Assembly: GCA_025965155.1 (NCBI GenBank)
Contig: JAOPXN010000116.1
Coordinates: forward strand, 1-64,000
Length of the DNA stretch: 64,000 nt
Direction of reading: 5' to 3'
Source: Propionibacteriaceae bacterium
GTDB taxonomy: Bacteria; Actinomycetota; Actinomycetes; Propionibacteriales; Propionibacteriaceae
The notes below the pieces were generated by a model, which did no database searches, had not been told where the DNA came from, and saw nothing but the letters and a program-made list of their open reading frames with translations. Shown piece after piece: positions 5,607 through 12,257 of the stretch (the first letter of the stretch is position 1; each line of letters opens with the position of its first letter). Made by a program: the position numbers and the translations under genes.

Positions 5607-6473
5607 ATGATCATGATCTTCGTAACAGGTGGGACCGGCACTGTCGGCTCGGCACTCCTGAGCAAGCTTCGCCAGCGCGGTGCCCGAGTCCGCGCTTTGG
5701 CGCACTCAGCCGATGGGCGGGCGATGATAGAACGTGCTCAGGGCGAGGCCGTCCCGGGCGACTTGGACCGGCCGGAGAGTCTGCAGACCGCCATGGCGGG
5801 ATGTGACCGCATGTTCCTGCTCTCTCGGGCCCATCTTGATCAGCCGGCTCGTGAAATTGCCGCCATTGACGCCGCACGGCGGGCGGGAGTCAAACACGTT
5901 GTCGCCCTGTCCATAATGGGCGCAGACGCTAACTCGACTGCCGTGTTCGCCCGTTGGCACGCCGAGATCGACGACCATCTGGTTCGCTCCGGGCTCGACT
6001 ACACGATTTTGCGGCCGGCGGGTTTCATGCAGACGCATCTGTGGCCGGTGAGAACCGTGCGGTCACAGGGGCGCTGGTTTGGCATGAGCGGTGACGGCGC
6101 GGCCGGATTCATCGATGCTGACGACGTCGCTGCGGTGGCGGCCGAAGTCTTGACAAGCCCGGGGCACGAGGGTTCCCTGTATGAACTCACCGGACCTGCG
6201 GCGACCAGTATGCCGGAGGCCGCCGCAGTGTTGTCTGACGTCATCGGCCGCCCGGTGACCTATGTCGATCTGCCGGCCGAGGAGTTCCGCGCCCGGTTGA
6301 CCGGTGGCGGTATACCCGATTTTGTCGCCGACGCCGTGGTCAATCTGTATCAGGTGATTCGAGCAGGCCACGCGGCAACTGTGACCAACTCGGTACAAGA
6401 GGTGCTGGGGCGGCCGGCACGGAGCTACCGTGAGTTCGCCGAGACCCACAAGACTGCCTTCCGCACGATGTGA
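5607..6473 (+). CDS. NmrA-like NAD(P)-binding SDR (atypical short-chain dehydrogenase)
   Basis: 288 residues, or 286 if the second ATG at 5613 is used, which gives the more typical beginning MIFVTGGTGTVGSALL. The N-terminal GGTGTVG is the Rossmann dinucleotide motif. The following RVRALAHS and GDLDRPESLQTAMAG segments are typical of NmrA/YwnB-like proteins, and the catalytic Tyr of true SDRs is not conserved. Such proteins are redox sensors or quinone/flavonoid reductases. TAACGT at 5598-5603 could be a -10 element close to the start. It stands alone on the plus strand, separate from the downstream oxidase gene. The substrate is unknown. Confidence 0.85.
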   Translation: MIMIFVTGGTGTVGSALLSKLRQRGARVRALAHSADGRAMIERAQGEAVPGDLDRPESLQTAMAGCDRMFLLSRAHLDQPAREIAAIDAARRAGVKHVVALSIMGADANSTAVFARWHAEIDDHLVRSGLDYTILRPAGFMQTHLWPVRTVRSQGRWFGMSGDGAAGFIDADDVAAVAAEVLTSPGHEGSLYELTGPAATSMPEAAAVLSDVIGRPVTYVDLPAEEFRARLTGGGIPDFVADAVVNLYQVIRAGHAATVTNSVQEVLGRPARSYREFAETHKTAFRTM

Positions 6474-6618: not shown

Positions 6619-8097
6619 ATGGACAGACGTGACCTGATCAGGTTCGGCCTGCTTGCGGGCGCCGCTGCTGCGGTGCCGGTGGGGCGGGCTTCGGCAAGCG
6701 TGTCGGAGTGGTTCTTGGAACAGCCGGTGGACAGTCCCCGGGTTGCTTCCTTCACAGTGCCGTTACGTATACCGCCGGTGCTGCAGCCGACACGGAGCGA
6801 TGCGACCACCGACTACTACGAGATCACGCAGCGAGAAGCGAGCGTACAGATCATTCCAGGGCTGCGCCCGACGCCGGTGTGGACCTACAACGGTGTCGTG
6901 CCCGGCCCCACCATCGTGCAGCGACAGGGGAGGGATGTCCGCGTTCGACAGCACAACGCGTTAAAGGTGCCAGTAAGCACTCATCTGCACGGAGGCGACG
7001 TTCCGGCCACCAGCGACGGACACCCGCTCGATCTCATCCAACCCGGCAAGTACAAGGACTACTACTATCCGGGCCTGCACGCGCCGGCACAGTTGTGGTA
7101 CCACGACCATTCCATTCATGACACCGGCCGCAATGTCTACCTGGGTTTGGCCGGGAACTACCTAGTTACCAGCGACGCCGAGGATTTGCTACCACTGCCC
7201 AAGGGCCAGTTCGACGTGCCACTCACAGTGCAGGACAAGTTCTTCCTCGCTGACGGCTCGATCGTGTACCCGCGACACGACGCGCTCCGTCCACTTGATC
7301 AAGGCGTCTTCGGTGACGTGATCTTGGTGAACGGCACACCCAAGCCCTTCTTCCGGGTGGCGCGGCGAAAGTATCGCTTCCGGTTCCTGAACGGCTCCAA
7401 CGCCCGCGTCTACCGCTTCAAGCTGAGCACCGGCGAGCCGTTCACCGTTGTCCAGACCGAAGGCGGCTTCCTGCCGCATCCGGTGTCCGTGCCCGACTTC
7501 GAGCTCGCATCGTCCGAGCGGTTGTCAGTTGTGGTTGACTTTTCTCGCTATCCCGTCGGGTCGAAGATCGTGCTACGCAATGTGATGGGCGACGTGCCGG
7601 GCGACCCGTTCGGTGAGGACAAGACTCGCGAGGTGATGCGCTTCGACGTCGTGAGCGACGCAGCCGATCCGAGCAGGGTGCCCGCCGATCTGCTCCCGCT
7701 GCCAGAGGATATTCGGCCGGAGGAGTCGGTCGCCACCCGCACGTTCGAGTTCGCCCGCAACGGCGGGCAGTGGACGATCAATCACAAGCCCTATGAGGAA
7801 CGCCGCATCGACGCGTTCCCGAAGCTCAACACAGTGGAGATCTGGCGTTTCGTTAATGGTGGTGGTGGATGGTGGCACCCGATCCACGTACACCTGGTCG
7901 AGTTCCTGGCGCTCTCTCGGACCGGGCGAGGGCTGCAGCCCTATGAACGCGGGCTCAAGGACACTTTGCTCCTGAGATCAAACGAAACTGTCACGGTCGC
8001 GATGCGGTGGAACCACTTCAAGGGTCTTTACGTCCTTCACTGCCACAATGTCGAACACGAGGACTTCGACATGATGGCCAACATCCAGGTCGTCTGA
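6619..8097 (+). CDS. Tat-exported multicopper oxidase (CotA/bilirubin-oxidase-like)
   Basis: 492 residues from the ATG at 6619, chosen because GGGGGGAAGC precedes it and the protein then begins with a twin-arginine signal (MDRRDLIRFGLLAGAAAA, cut near RASA). Four copper-ligand blocks are present: HLHGG (H122, H124), WYHDH (H162, H164), HPIHVH (H420, H423, H425) and HCHNVEHEDFDMM (H474-H480). These form the type 1 copper and the trinuclear cluster. The three-cupredoxin order and EHED(F/Y)DMM ending match CotA-type laccases, which oxidise phenols, bilirubin or metals and reduce oxygen to water outside the membrane. A small membrane protein follows 3 bases later, so the two are likely cotranscribed. 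Confidence 0.93.
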   Translation: MDRRDLIRFGLLAGAAAAVPVGRASASVSEWFLEQPVDSPRVASFTVPLRIPPVLQPTRSDATTDYYEITQREASVQIIPGLRPTPVWTYNGVVPGPTIVQRQGRDVRVRQHNALKVPVSTHLHGGDVPATSDGHPLDLIQPGKYKDYYYPGLHAPAQLWYHDHSIHDTGRNVYLGLAGNYLVTSDAEDLLPLPKGQFDVPLTVQDKFFLADGSIVYPRHDALRPLDQGVFGDVILVNGTPKPFFRVARRKYRFRFLNGSNARVYRFKLSTGEPFTVVQTEGGFLPHPVSVPDFELASSERLSVVVDFSRYPVGSKIVLRNVMGDVPGDPFGEDKTREVMRFDVVSDAADPSRVPADLLPLPEDIRPEESVATRTFEFARNGGQWTINHKPYEERRIDAFPKLNTVEIWRFVNGGGGWWHPIHVHLVEFLALSRTGRGLQPYERGLKDTLLLRSNETVTVAMRWNHFKGLYVLHCHNVEHEDFDMMANIQVV

Positions 8098-8100
8098 ATC

Positions 8101-8652
8101 ATGGCGAACCAGGTTGTCACTGCACCGACAACGAGACCTAGACTGCGTCGGCTTGCTGCGGTTGCATGTTTACTCGGTGCTGAAGCCATACACGTAGCTG
8201 TCCTGGACGAGCACATGGAGGAGTGGCTGCCGGCTGGACTGTTCTTCTTCTGCGTCGCTGTCCTGGAAGGAGCGGTCGCGGTCGCGCTGCTTACCGCGAC
8301 CTCGTCCCGAGTAGAGCGTACGGCGATCTGTCTCAGCCTTGGCACGCTGGCGTTATGGCTGACCTCCCGAACCGTCGGGCTACCGATAGGGCCGATGAGC
8401 GGCCATCCGGAGCCCGTAGGCCGAGCAGACGCTGTTGCCAGCGCGCTCGAACTCACAACAGCTCTCGTACTGCTGCGGACAACAGTCGTGCCGAAGGCAA
8501 TCCCATGGGGACCTTCGAGCTACCTCCGCGCCGCCTTGATAATGGCAGCCGTCACGGCGTCTACCACCCTCGGCGTGACCTCAGAACACGGACGACTACA
8601 CACCCCACCGGACCTCACGCCCGCGGTGCCCCCGCAGGCACGATCGAGGTAA
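8101..8652 (+). CDS. Hypothetical four-helix membrane protein, partner of the multicopper oxidase
   Basis: 183 residues with about four hydrophobic segments (around LAAVACLLGAEAIHVAVL, GLFFFCVAVLEGAVAVALL, ICLSLGTLALWLTSRTVGL and ALIMAAVTASTTLGV). The second and third are separated by a short charged loop (SSRVERT), and the C-terminal tail is Pro-rich. EAIHVAVLDEHMEEW is notable: His, Asp, Glu and Met clustered at the membrane edge could bind metal. The ATG lies 3 bases after the oxidase stop, so it is in the same operon and may help in copper supply or anchoring; that role is inference. I do not recognise a named family. Confidence 0.8.
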   Translation: MANQVVTAPTTRPRLRRLAAVACLLGAEAIHVAVLDEHMEEWLPAGLFFFCVAVLEGAVAVALLTATSSRVERTAICLSLGTLALWLTSRTVGLPIGPMSGHPEPVGRADAVASALELTTALVLLRTTVVPKAIPWGPSSYLRAALIMAAVTASTTLGVTSEHGRLHTPPDLTPAVPPQARSR

Positions 8653-8674: not shown

Positions 8675-8917
8675 TCAGGTAACGGCGGGACCGCTTTCAT
8701 CGCTGCCCGAGAGCCGCTTGATGAACTCGTGACACTTCGACGCTCGGTCGGAGTCCTCCTTCATCACCTGCTCGAAGAAGTCGGCGATGTCATCCTGCTT
8801 GGCATTGCGGGCGTCACGGACGTACTGCCCGTAATCATGTCCCGCCTTCAGGGAGTGGTACTGGACACTGATCAGGTCGTAGGTTACGTCATCGAAGCCG
8901 GTTTCACCGGTGGCCAT
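8675..8917 (-). CDS. Small conserved helical protein (ferritin-like helix pattern)
   Basis: 80 residues. The start is fixed by AAAGGAGG placed 5 bases before the ATG at 8917; a longer frame reading lacks such a site. The protein is acidic and helical with heptad-like spacing: DDVTYDLISVQYHSLKAG, YVRDARNAKQDDIADFFEQV, EDSDRASKCHEFIKRL. The arrangement of Glu, His and Tyr residues resembles a short ferritin-like or rubrerythrin-like two-helix unit seen in small actinobacterial proteins, but a full set of metal ligands cannot be claimed. It is a single gene converging on the oxidase operon. Unknown function, possibly stress related. Confidence 0.8.
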   Translation of the reverse strand: MATGETGFDDVTYDLISVQYHSLKAGHDYGQYVRDARNAKQDDIADFFEQVMKEDSDRASKCHEFIKRLSGSDESGPAVT

Positions 8918-9046: not shown

Positions 9047-9514
9047 GTGGAGAACATCGTCGAGGTTGTCGTCGAGACGCCGCGCAGCAGCAGGAACGTC
9101 TACGAAGTGGACGATCGTGGCCAGGTCCGGTTCGACCGTCGCCTGCCCGGCTCATTCGCATTTCCAGCAGATTATGGCTACATAATCGGCGCGACCGGGT
9201 CCGATGGGGAACCGTTGGACGCCCTGGTGCTCATGCCGGAAGCGACGTATCCAGGGGTGCGCGTCCGGGCTCGGGTGGTTGGAGTGTTCTGGATCATGAC
9301 CGGTCACGGCAGGGAGGCGAAGCTGGTCTGTGTCCCGGACGGCGATCCCGCCTACCGGGATGTGACGGAGCTGGCGCAGTTGCCGGAGCACCAGCTCCAA
9401 GAGATCGGACACTTCTTTGACATCTACCGTGACCTCGACCCGGGTAAGGACGTCCGATGCGATGGCAGAGATGACGCGGCCGCGGCAATCGCTGTGGTGG
9501 AACGAAGCAGCTGA
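9047..9514 (+). CDS. ppa: Divergent family I inorganic pyrophosphatase
   Basis: 155 residues, close to the family length. Strand and site motifs match soluble PPase: ETPRSSRNVYEVD, RFDRRLP, PADYGYI, DGEPLDALVL, AKLVCVP and FDIYRDLDPGK. Against my recollection of E. coli PPase, D67 is Glu here (DGEPLD for DGDPVD), D97 is replaced in the MTGHGRE segment, D102 is Glu (REAKLV for EDAKLV) and K142 is Arg. The metal-binding carboxylates are therefore partly changed, and activity on diphosphate is uncertain. The start is a GTG with no clear ribosome binding site. It is monocistronic and followed by a hairpin terminator. A paralogue specialised for another phosphate ester is an alternative. Confidence 0.85.
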   Translation: MENIVEVVVETPRSSRNVYEVDDRGQVRFDRRLPGSFAFPADYGYIIGATGSDGEPLDALVLMPEATYPGVRVRARVVGVFWIMTGHGREAKLVCVPDGDPAYRDVTELAQLPEHQLQEIGHFFDIYRDLDPGKDVRCDGRDDAAAAIAVVERSS

Positions 9515-9711: not shown

Positions 9712-11373
9712 TCAACGCTCGACCACGACGTGCTCGTTGGGCACACAGTGAGTCATGGTCAGGCCCTCGACGTCGCGTGGACCGTTCTTGCCGAGGTTGC
9801 TGAGGCGCTCCAGCTCCTTGTCGTTCAGCGTCTGGGAGGCCAGTGGCTCCAGCTGCCGCACATCGTCGGGCGAGATACCGAGCCCCTCACCCACCCGCAA
9901 TCCGAGTTCGTCCTCGACCATGAGGAAATGCCAGACCATCCTCTCCTGGACCTCCCGGGTTGCCTCAGAGATGAGGGTGACGAAGTTATGAACGAGGTCG
10001 TCACGCTCCCAGTCCTGCATCAGCCGGAACCGCTGACCCGCCTGCTCGTAGTCATTAGTGCGCGGAATCCGCTTTCGGGTCAGCCGGCCGACGATCGTGG
10101 GACCCTGCTCGTCGTGCGTGGGGTATGTCCCCTCTCGAAGCCCACCCATGGTGGACGGCTCGTAGTTCACGTGCGGGTTCTGACCTTCGCCCAGGTCGAC
10201 GCCGTAGGACATCTGACCGCCGCGCTGGTTCGTGGCCACGCGGGCGTTCTTCGGGCTGTTCACCGGAAGCTGGAGGTAGTTGGGCCCGACCCGATAGCGC
10301 TGGGTGTCGCTGTAGCTGAAGGTCCGGCCAACCAGCATCTTGTCGTCAGAGAAGTCCAGCCCGTCGATCAGCACGCCCGTGCCGAACGAGATCTGCTCGT
10401 TCTCGTTGTGGTGGTCGCTGACGTTGCTGGTCAACGTCATCGTGCCGACCAGCTTGGGTACGAAGTCCTGCTCGGGCCACGTCTTGGTGTCATCCAGCGG
10501 GTCGAAGTCCAGCTCGGGGTGCTCCTCGTCGCTCATCATCTGGACGTAGAGGTCCCACTTCGGGTAGTCGCCGCGCTCGATGGCGTCCCACAGGTCTCGA
10601 GATGCGTGGCCAAGATCGATCGCCTGGATGTTGGCTGCGTCGGCTGCGGTGAGACTCTTCACTCCCTGATGCGGCTGCCAGTGGTACTTGACCAGCTTAG
10701 TCTCCCCAGCCGCATTGACCCATTTGTACGTGTTCACACCGAATCCCTGCATGTGGCGGTAGTTCAGCGGGATGCCGCGCGGGCTGAAGAGGTTCACGAT
10801 CATGTGCATCGCCTCCGGAGTCTGCGACATGAAGTCGAAGATCCGGGCCGGCTCCTGCCGGAACGTGATCGGATCCGGCTTGAGGGAGTGGATCACATCC
10901 GGAAACTTGATGGCGTCACGGATGAAGAAGACTCCAAGATTGTTGCCAACGAGGTCCCAGTTGCCGTCTTCGGTATAGAACTTCACCGCGAAGCCGCGCG
11001 GGTCCCTCGCTGCCTCCGAGGAGTCCCGACCGCCGATCACGGTGGAGAAGCGGATCGCCAGATCAGTGCGTTTCCCGGCCTCGGCGAACGGCTTCGCCCG
11101 CGTGTACTGAGCTATCGGCTCGTCGCCCCATTGGCCGGTCGCTTCGAAGTATCCGTATGCCACTGCACCGCGGGCGTGCACCACGCGCTCGGGGATGCGC
11201 TCCCGGTCGAAGTGGCTGATCTTCTCCAGGAACTGGTAGTTCTCCAAGGTGGCCGGACCGCGGGCGCCTACGGTTCGCTGGTTCTGGTTGTCGTAGACCT
11301 GGTGACCTTGTCTGTTCGTCAGGACGGGGCGGTCGTCGCCAGGATCGGAACTCTTGCTCGCTACGTCAGTCAT
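9712..11373 (-). CDS. Monofunctional haem catalase
   Basis: 553 residues. The ATG at 11373 is preceded by AAGGAAA at good spacing; a longer frame upstream is not supported. The distal haem His is in RVVHARGA (H66), the distal Asn in [11 protein letters not shown] (about 145-146), and the proximal haem Tyr in [14 protein letters not shown]. The ending [20 protein letters not shown] continues past the core, giving a mid-sized catalase rather than the 750-residue large type. It decomposes hydrogen peroxide in the cytoplasm. It is transcribed alone, and its promoter must lie in the 11374-11543 gap. The LuxR-type gene upstream reads in the same direction and could be its regulator, which is inference. 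Confidence 0.96.
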
Positions 11374-11543: not shown

Positions 11544-12257
11544 TTATTGGGTCGAGTCTGGTAAATGCTTCCGCGCCCAGCTGGCTGCGCTGGTGCGGTT
11601 GGTCACGCCGATTCGGCGGAAGATGTTGCCGACGTGCACCTTGACGGTCCTGGGGCTGATGCCCAGTCGGTGACCAATCTCCTTGTTGCCAAGCCCTTGG
11701 GCCACGAGTGTGAGCACTTCGCTCTCACGCGCAGTCAGCGAAGGATCTTCAGCCGTGCCCTGATCGGGCCTACTGGGAAGCAGCGCCTCGGCAACCCTTG
11801 GATCGAGCGTGGCGGACCCCAGTGCAGCCGCCCGCACGGCGGCAATCAGGCTCTGCGGGTCACAGTCCTTGAGAAGGTACCCGATGGCGCCGGCGGCCAG
11901 AGCGTCAACGACGCGGTCTTGTTCGAAGAAGGAACTGAGGACGACGACGCGAGTCTCGGGTCGCTCGGCCAGCAGCCGTCGGGCGGTCTCGGGCGCCGCC
12001 TGGTGGGGCGTTGACAGATCCATCAGCACTACATCCGGTTTCAGGTCGCGCGCCAGCTGCACCGCCTCGTCAGCGTCCCCGGCTTGACCGACGATGTCGA
12101 AGGACTCCGCTGCCTCCAGGAGTGCGGCCAGTCCGGCGCGCACGAGCTGATGCTGGTCGACGATCATCAACCGGATCACGAAGGAGCCTGAGGCCGCCGG
12201 GAGCTCAGTTCGCCGCCGAGTGCCGGCTGGCCCGAGACGATCGGTGACATTGGTCAT
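11544..12257 (-). CDS. LuxR/NarL-type response regulator
   Basis: 237 residues from the ATG at 12257; a GTG at 12179 directly before [10 protein letters not shown] is an alternative because the first 26 residues are not conserved-looking. The receiver domain has the phosphoacceptor D80 (VVLMDLSTP), the Ser of VVVLSSFF and the Lys of YLLKDCDP. The usual acidic pair reads D-Q (VDQHQ) rather than D-D, so phosphorylation may be altered. The C-terminal LuxR helix-turn-helix runs [24 protein letters not shown] onward. No histidine kinase is encoded nearby, so this is an orphan regulator. The targets may include the adjacent catalase, but no operator was identified. Confidence 0.9.

Follow-up and report, generated by a model that had tools for sequence, protein, structure and literature searches.

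A divergent family I pyrophosphatase paralogue with a remodelled active site, maintained beside an ordinary pyrophosphatase in Actinobacteria

In textbooks, family I pyrophosphatase stands as an example of an enzyme with an almost unvarying active site. Within the window, the whole stretch of 64,000 nucleotides of a Propionibacteriaceae contig that was analysed here, we found a gene for a divergent homologue of this enzyme at 9047..9514 on the forward strand, a GTG-initiated open reading frame of 155 amino acids with a match to PF00719. Upstream, on the same strand as this gene, lie genes for an NmrA-like protein (5607-6473) and a multicopper oxidase (6619-8097), followed by an unmatched frame (8101-8652). 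A small reverse-strand frame of 80 residues (8675-8917), which has only a sub-threshold DUF2383 match, stands just before the pyrophosphatase gene. Downstream, the reverse strand encodes a catalase (9712-11373) and then, at 11544-12167, a response regulator of the LuxR type.

The protein matched the PF00719 profile with an E-value of 3.9e-37 and 127.8 bits, exceeding the curated cut-off of 23.5, and its best match among solved structures was the Mycobacterium tuberculosis pyrophosphatase (E 4.3e-39). An AlphaFold model made with 29 related sequences as input had a mean pLDDT of 91.3 and could be superposed on M. tuberculosis pyrophosphatase (4z70) with a Z score of 25.7 and an rmsd of 1.4 Å over 154 residues, at 46% identity. 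Each of the best 50 entries in the structure comparison bears the title of an inorganic pyrophosphatase or phosphatase (Z 23.2-25.7). As modelled, the protein has the pyrophosphatase fold. Against the NCBIfam equivalog, which has a cut-off of 200, it scored 111.3 bits and the Escherichia coli enzyme 321.3; this cut-off was dropped as a discriminator since the ordinary pyrophosphatase of the same genome, given without its N-terminus, falls below it too (168.2 bits).

Residues are numbered here by E. coli Ppa (K-12 gene), and M. tuberculosis Ppa was also aligned. Relative to E. coli Ppa, the window protein carries K29V (Val18, 9098..9100), Y51F (Phe39, 9161..9163), D67E (Glu55, 9209..9211; DGEPLD for DGDPxD), D97T with E98G (Thr85-Gly86, 9299..9304), D102E (Glu90, 9314..9316), and K142R (Arg128, 9428..9430), all coordinates being on the forward strand. 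It therefore differs at 7/16 of what we take to be the conserved polar active-site positions and lacks the full set. The residues E20, E31, R43, Y55, D65, D70, K104, and Y141 are kept, among them D65 (Asp53, 9203..9205, forward strand), the expected M1 ligand, and D70 (Asp58, 9218..9220, forward strand), the expected M1/M2 ligand, each of which is Asp in 56/56 aligned rows. D67E and D102E are conservative and keep a carboxylate; D97T is a real loss of an acid. In E. coli pyrophosphatase, D97 is presumably an M3 ligand and D67 presumably serves in water activation. The original prediction had named changes at D67, D97, and D102 plus Arg for K142, and all four are real in the alignment, but its list was incomplete, as K29V, E98G, and Y51F had been missed. 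It had also allowed that the acids might be present at shifted positions. They are not merely shifted, because no gap interrupts the alignment between D97 and K104 and there is no acid between residues 66 and 89 of the window protein. The available text of PMC8900733 describes D-(S/G/N)-D-P-ali-D-ali-ali as the signature of pyrophosphatases; it is broken in the window protein, which reads D-G-E-P-L-D-A-L with Glu in third place.

A second PF00719 gene is present in the same genome (G000:C70:13639-14097; 190.5 bits), and it carries the usual K29, D65, D67, D70, D97, E98, D102, K104, Y141, and K142. The original prediction had suggested that the window gene might be a paralogue and that a canonical ppa be sought in the same genome; the search found this one, so the window gene is not the only pyrophosphatase gene there, and its position in a separate clade in trees also bears the suggestion out. 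Furthermore, an ordinary ppa accompanies the variant in 13/13 carrier genomes examined (G000, G551, G552, G553, G244, G173, G115, G151, G729, G810, G878, G638, and G766), a count that leaves out carriers G1556, G1561, G1465, and G1471; in G244 the ordinary copy ends at the contig end, ahead of K142. Separately, two closely similar ordinary pyrophosphatases (L043 and L050) occur together in G176, which belongs to the window's family.

A scan of species genomes returned four relatives of the window protein, three of which are variants: those of an uncultured Propionibacteriaceae MAG (89% identity), Motilibacter deserti (77%), and Geodermatophilus obscurus (73%). The remaining one, from Colwellbacteria (37%), keeps K29, D67, D97, D102, and K142. 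Genome searches added G244 (65%), clade B from the family to which G553, the G. obscurus genome, belongs (G729, G810, G878, G638, and G766), and clade C from the window's order (G173, G115, and G151). In a tree of 56 rows (clade A, 5; B, 4; C, 3; D, 4; ordinary, 40), clades A, B, and C were joined with support of 100/99 on a stem of 1.06 changes per column, the bootstrap being rough and not quite settled, and clade D was their sister group (99/93). A, B, and C still formed one group after removal of 23 active-site and neighbouring columns (SH-aLRT 95), in a tree made by a quick method with the two most distant rows left out and with a long-branch warning. Since the group is recovered without the active-site columns, one origin would suffice for A, B, and C. 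G638 (L083, L089, and L060), G810 (L080, L090, and L059), and G878 (L084, L091, and L061) each contain three family I homologues, one ordinary, one with clade D residues, and one of clade B.

The combination of Thr or Val at position 97 with Glu at 102 was found in 12/12 rows of clades A, B, and C (Thr in 9 and Val in 3), in 0/4 clade D rows, and in 0/40 ordinary rows, where both positions are Asp throughout (40/40 each). The window protein bears this mark, as do five of five members read later (L094 from G766, L100, L101, L103, and L104). Other changes are less uniform: D67E occurs in 8/12 clade rows (Asp in 40/40 ordinary rows) and Y51F in 11/12 (Tyr in 39/40 ordinary rows). Position 142 is Arg in 8 clade rows, comprising all those of A and C, Lys in 3, and Glu in 1, the last four all in clade B, and is Lys in 40/40 ordinary rows. 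K29V is confined to the window protein and that of the MAG (row MAG75), K29 being kept in the other 10/12. Because K29 is kept in ten and K142 in three of the 12 clade rows, changes at these lysines do not, on this alignment, define the clade. Position 44, next to R43, is Arg in 12/12 clade rows and 0/40 ordinary rows, and in four of the five later rows; L094 is incomplete and could not be judged there. E20, D65, D70, E102, K104, and Y141 are identical across 12/12 clade rows. The substitution pattern is found again among relatives belonging to several actinobacterial families and, judged from these sequences, is thus more than chance. The open-access literature, to which our search was confined, yielded among the papers listed none on such a paralogue clade; PMC12187853 and PMC8602919 each mention Geodermatophilus together with inorganic pyrophosphatase, and the strings D97, D102, and D67 are absent from the accessible portion of the review PMC11210485.

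Overall, the variant is sparsely distributed. At E 1e-42, a match was found in 3/394 genomes of a class sample (own included), in 1/396 genomes of a phylum sample (the window's own), and in 4/298 genomes of the order of G553 (G553 included). The family of G553 gave matches in 9/112 genomes at 1e-40, six being variant and three clade D (G886, G906, and G841), and the window's family in 4/197 at 1e-39, two of these being the variants of the window's own genome and of the MAG and two being ordinary enzymes (G127 and G1409). With a clade C query at 1e-45, 7/197 genomes of the family of G173 matched. Within the same genus, the variant was present in 2 of 20 genomes listed, own included. This sparse distribution suggests horizontal spread or repeated loss. 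A mobile-element origin was rejected, as identity of at least 60% was found in 0/120 matching plasmid records and 0/9 matching phage records.

The patchiness in the genus and class samples is what a decaying or useless gene copy might also leave, yet the frame is open, the motif is conserved over several families, and dN/dS across seven variant pairs ranged from 0.069 to 0.233. These values were obtained by the Nei-Gojobori method with our own script and are rough, as several dS values were near or above 1. Between the window gene and that of the MAG, its nearest relative, dN/dS was 0.069, and the ordinary genes that accompany this variant pair in the two genomes gave 0.018; between G115 and G151 it was 0.106 for the variant pair and 0.148 for the ordinary pair. 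By these comparisons the variant is thus under purifying selection, which, together with the retained metal acids, makes decay very improbable. We found that 9/16 active-site columns are invariant within the clade compared to 27/126 other columns (Fisher p 0.005). Among columns conserved in the ordinary rows, 7/16 at the active site and 37/78 elsewhere are changed in the window protein. By this count change has been no faster at the active site than elsewhere in the protein, and the lack of an excess of change there counts against a reading of altered function.

Gene neighbourhoods were compared in 13 flanking regions, with a home-made gene caller and then with all open frames of at least 80 codons; the caller had missed some window genes, and among them and in the MAG75 and Geodermatophilus regions the pyrophosphatase genes themselves. 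The neighbours differ among relatives: in the MAG they encode a CBS-domain protein and a member of the phosphotransferase family, in Motilibacter a short-chain dehydrogenase and a STAS protein. Clade C shows long synteny common to G115 and G151. A conserved operon was rejected, as no neighbour common to the clades stands at a fixed place in the 13 regions. Cross-clade matches besides the pyrophosphatase were few and mostly weak, comprising ABC-transporter ATPases at 29-40% among three regions (Geodermatophilus, G638, and G729), a response regulator common to the window and the G173 region (42%), a dehydrogenase in the Motilibacter and G173 flanks (28%), and three further pairs (32-54%), and for this reason gene context does not point firmly to any substrate.

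Two of these neighbourhoods have features of their own. The CBS-domain protein of the MAG (L003:5502-6014, forward strand) follows the variant gene, and no CBS-domain neighbour was seen in the other flanking regions compared; some family II pyrophosphatases are regulated by CBS domains, according to the available text of PMC11210485. In G638 (L073:9255-13677), the clade B gene (9744-10370) adjoins an HTH-TOBE regulator on one side and, on the other, genes for a solute-binding protein, a permease, and a TOBE-bearing ABC ATPase, then a MobA-like protein. This cluster looks like possible molybdate uptake genes, a setting seen only in G638 among the 13 regions, as far as examined.

Published mutants bear on what the substitutions may do. 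In the accessible part of PMC6770254, Asp66, Asp68, Asp98, and Lys143 of Acinetobacter pyrophosphatase (by numbering, E. coli D65, D67, D97, and K142) coordinate divalent cations or PPi, and K30R and K143R (by numbering, at K29 and K142) each lose almost all activity. PMC5507929, in its available portion, describes a Toxoplasma pyrophosphatase in which M1 is held by three Asp, one of them also holding M2, and mutants of the Plasmodium enzyme whose residues D203, D235, D198, and K136 we equate with E. coli D70, D102, D65, and K29. There, D203N lowers activity about 600-fold and K136R raises Km 40-fold, while, according to the authors, kcat fell only about 5-fold with D235N and about 6-fold with D198N. 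A study of yeast D117E is cited in the accessible text of PMC8386120.

Given that D65 and D70 remain in the window protein, with an acid also at 102, and that both lysines and D97 are lost, we expect weak or absent diphosphatase activity with the metal pair still bound. Some diphosphatase activity could remain, because the Plasmodium D235N and D198N changes were mild. A slow or conditional true pyrophosphatase, active for instance when another metal takes the place of Mg2+ or when the cell is stressed, would fit that mildness at two metal ligands (PMC5507929, available portion), the remaining M1/M2 acids, the conservative nature of D67E and D102E, and the retention of K142 in 3/4 clade B rows. 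We nevertheless consider it unlikely: D97 is lost clade-wide, the window protein has lost K29 and K142 as well, the corresponding Acinetobacter K30R and K143R changes left the enzyme nearly inactive, which disfavours ordinary PPi hydrolysis, and the ordinary ppa in every one of the carriers checked should make the variant dispensable for PPi removal.

The original prediction had offered another substrate or an inactive regulator as alternatives, and either may hold. Our best explanation, to which we give an even chance, is that the variant is a maintained paralogue without efficient diphosphate hydrolysis whose metal site is used on a different phosphate compound. A diverged paralogue of the soluble family I pyrophosphatase is kept beside the ordinary ppa, with E20, E31, R43, K104, Y141, and the fold retained; D65, D70, and the Glu at 102 would hold the central catalytic metal pair. 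Loss of the D97 acid and replacement of both K29 and K142 would make diphosphate hydrolysis inefficient, and the retained metal site may hydrolyse or bind a different phosphate compound. Going further, it is possible, if less probable, that the clade is a distinct Actinobacteria enzyme family derived from pyrophosphatase that kept the metal pair, dropped D97, remodelled the lysines, and cleaves another diphosphate-containing molecule, with Arg44 helping to hold that molecule.

The same losses could instead point to a pseudo-enzyme, catalytically dead, whose role would be to bind some phosphate ligand or to mix into the ordinary Ppa hexamer and regulate it. The window protein has both K29 and K142 changed, where each single Arg change inactivates the Acinetobacter enzyme, and its fold appears intact in the AlphaFold model and its superposition on 4z70. 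H136, F137, F138, and D143 are kept around a putative oligomer-contact helix, the helix near H136-D143 being, we assume, part of the oligomer contact. Against this, the six residues that are identical in all 12 clade rows are not obviously needed by a dead subunit, and no gene neighbour is common across the clades in the 13 regions, and we regard such a protein as doubtful. Altogether, an altered function is likely, and a changed phosphate substrate or ligand seems more likely than a dead shell. As a lineage maintained in nature with the D97 acid gone and, in part, two key lysines as well, the clade offers a ready experiment that could separate the residues needed for chemistry from those needed for PPi specificity. 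Furthermore, variant genes annotated automatically as "inorganic diphosphatase" may be mislabelled.

Among known systems, M. tuberculosis Rv3628 (PDB 4z70 and 1wcf) resembles the window protein in fold and in E20, E31, R43, Y55, D65, D70, K104, and Y141, and the window protein differs from it by K29V, Y51F, D67E, D97T, E98G, D102E, and K142R. A second comparison is provided by clade D, the second pyrophosphatase of the Geodermatophilus obscurus family (L044, L062, L063, and L065, and by residues L089-L091). This sister group has W94 and A103 in common with the majority of the window's clade; unlike that clade, it keeps D67, D97, and D102 and has Glu for K142 in 7/7 rows read. Its E98 is variable and two rows carry K29R, so it is another natural active-site variant. 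Finally, E. coli pyrophosphatase D97N (PDB 1mjz) and Acinetobacter K30R (PDB 6ki7) were engineered at sites that are naturally changed in the window protein; these are single laboratory changes, whereas the window protein carries several together, and inherited.
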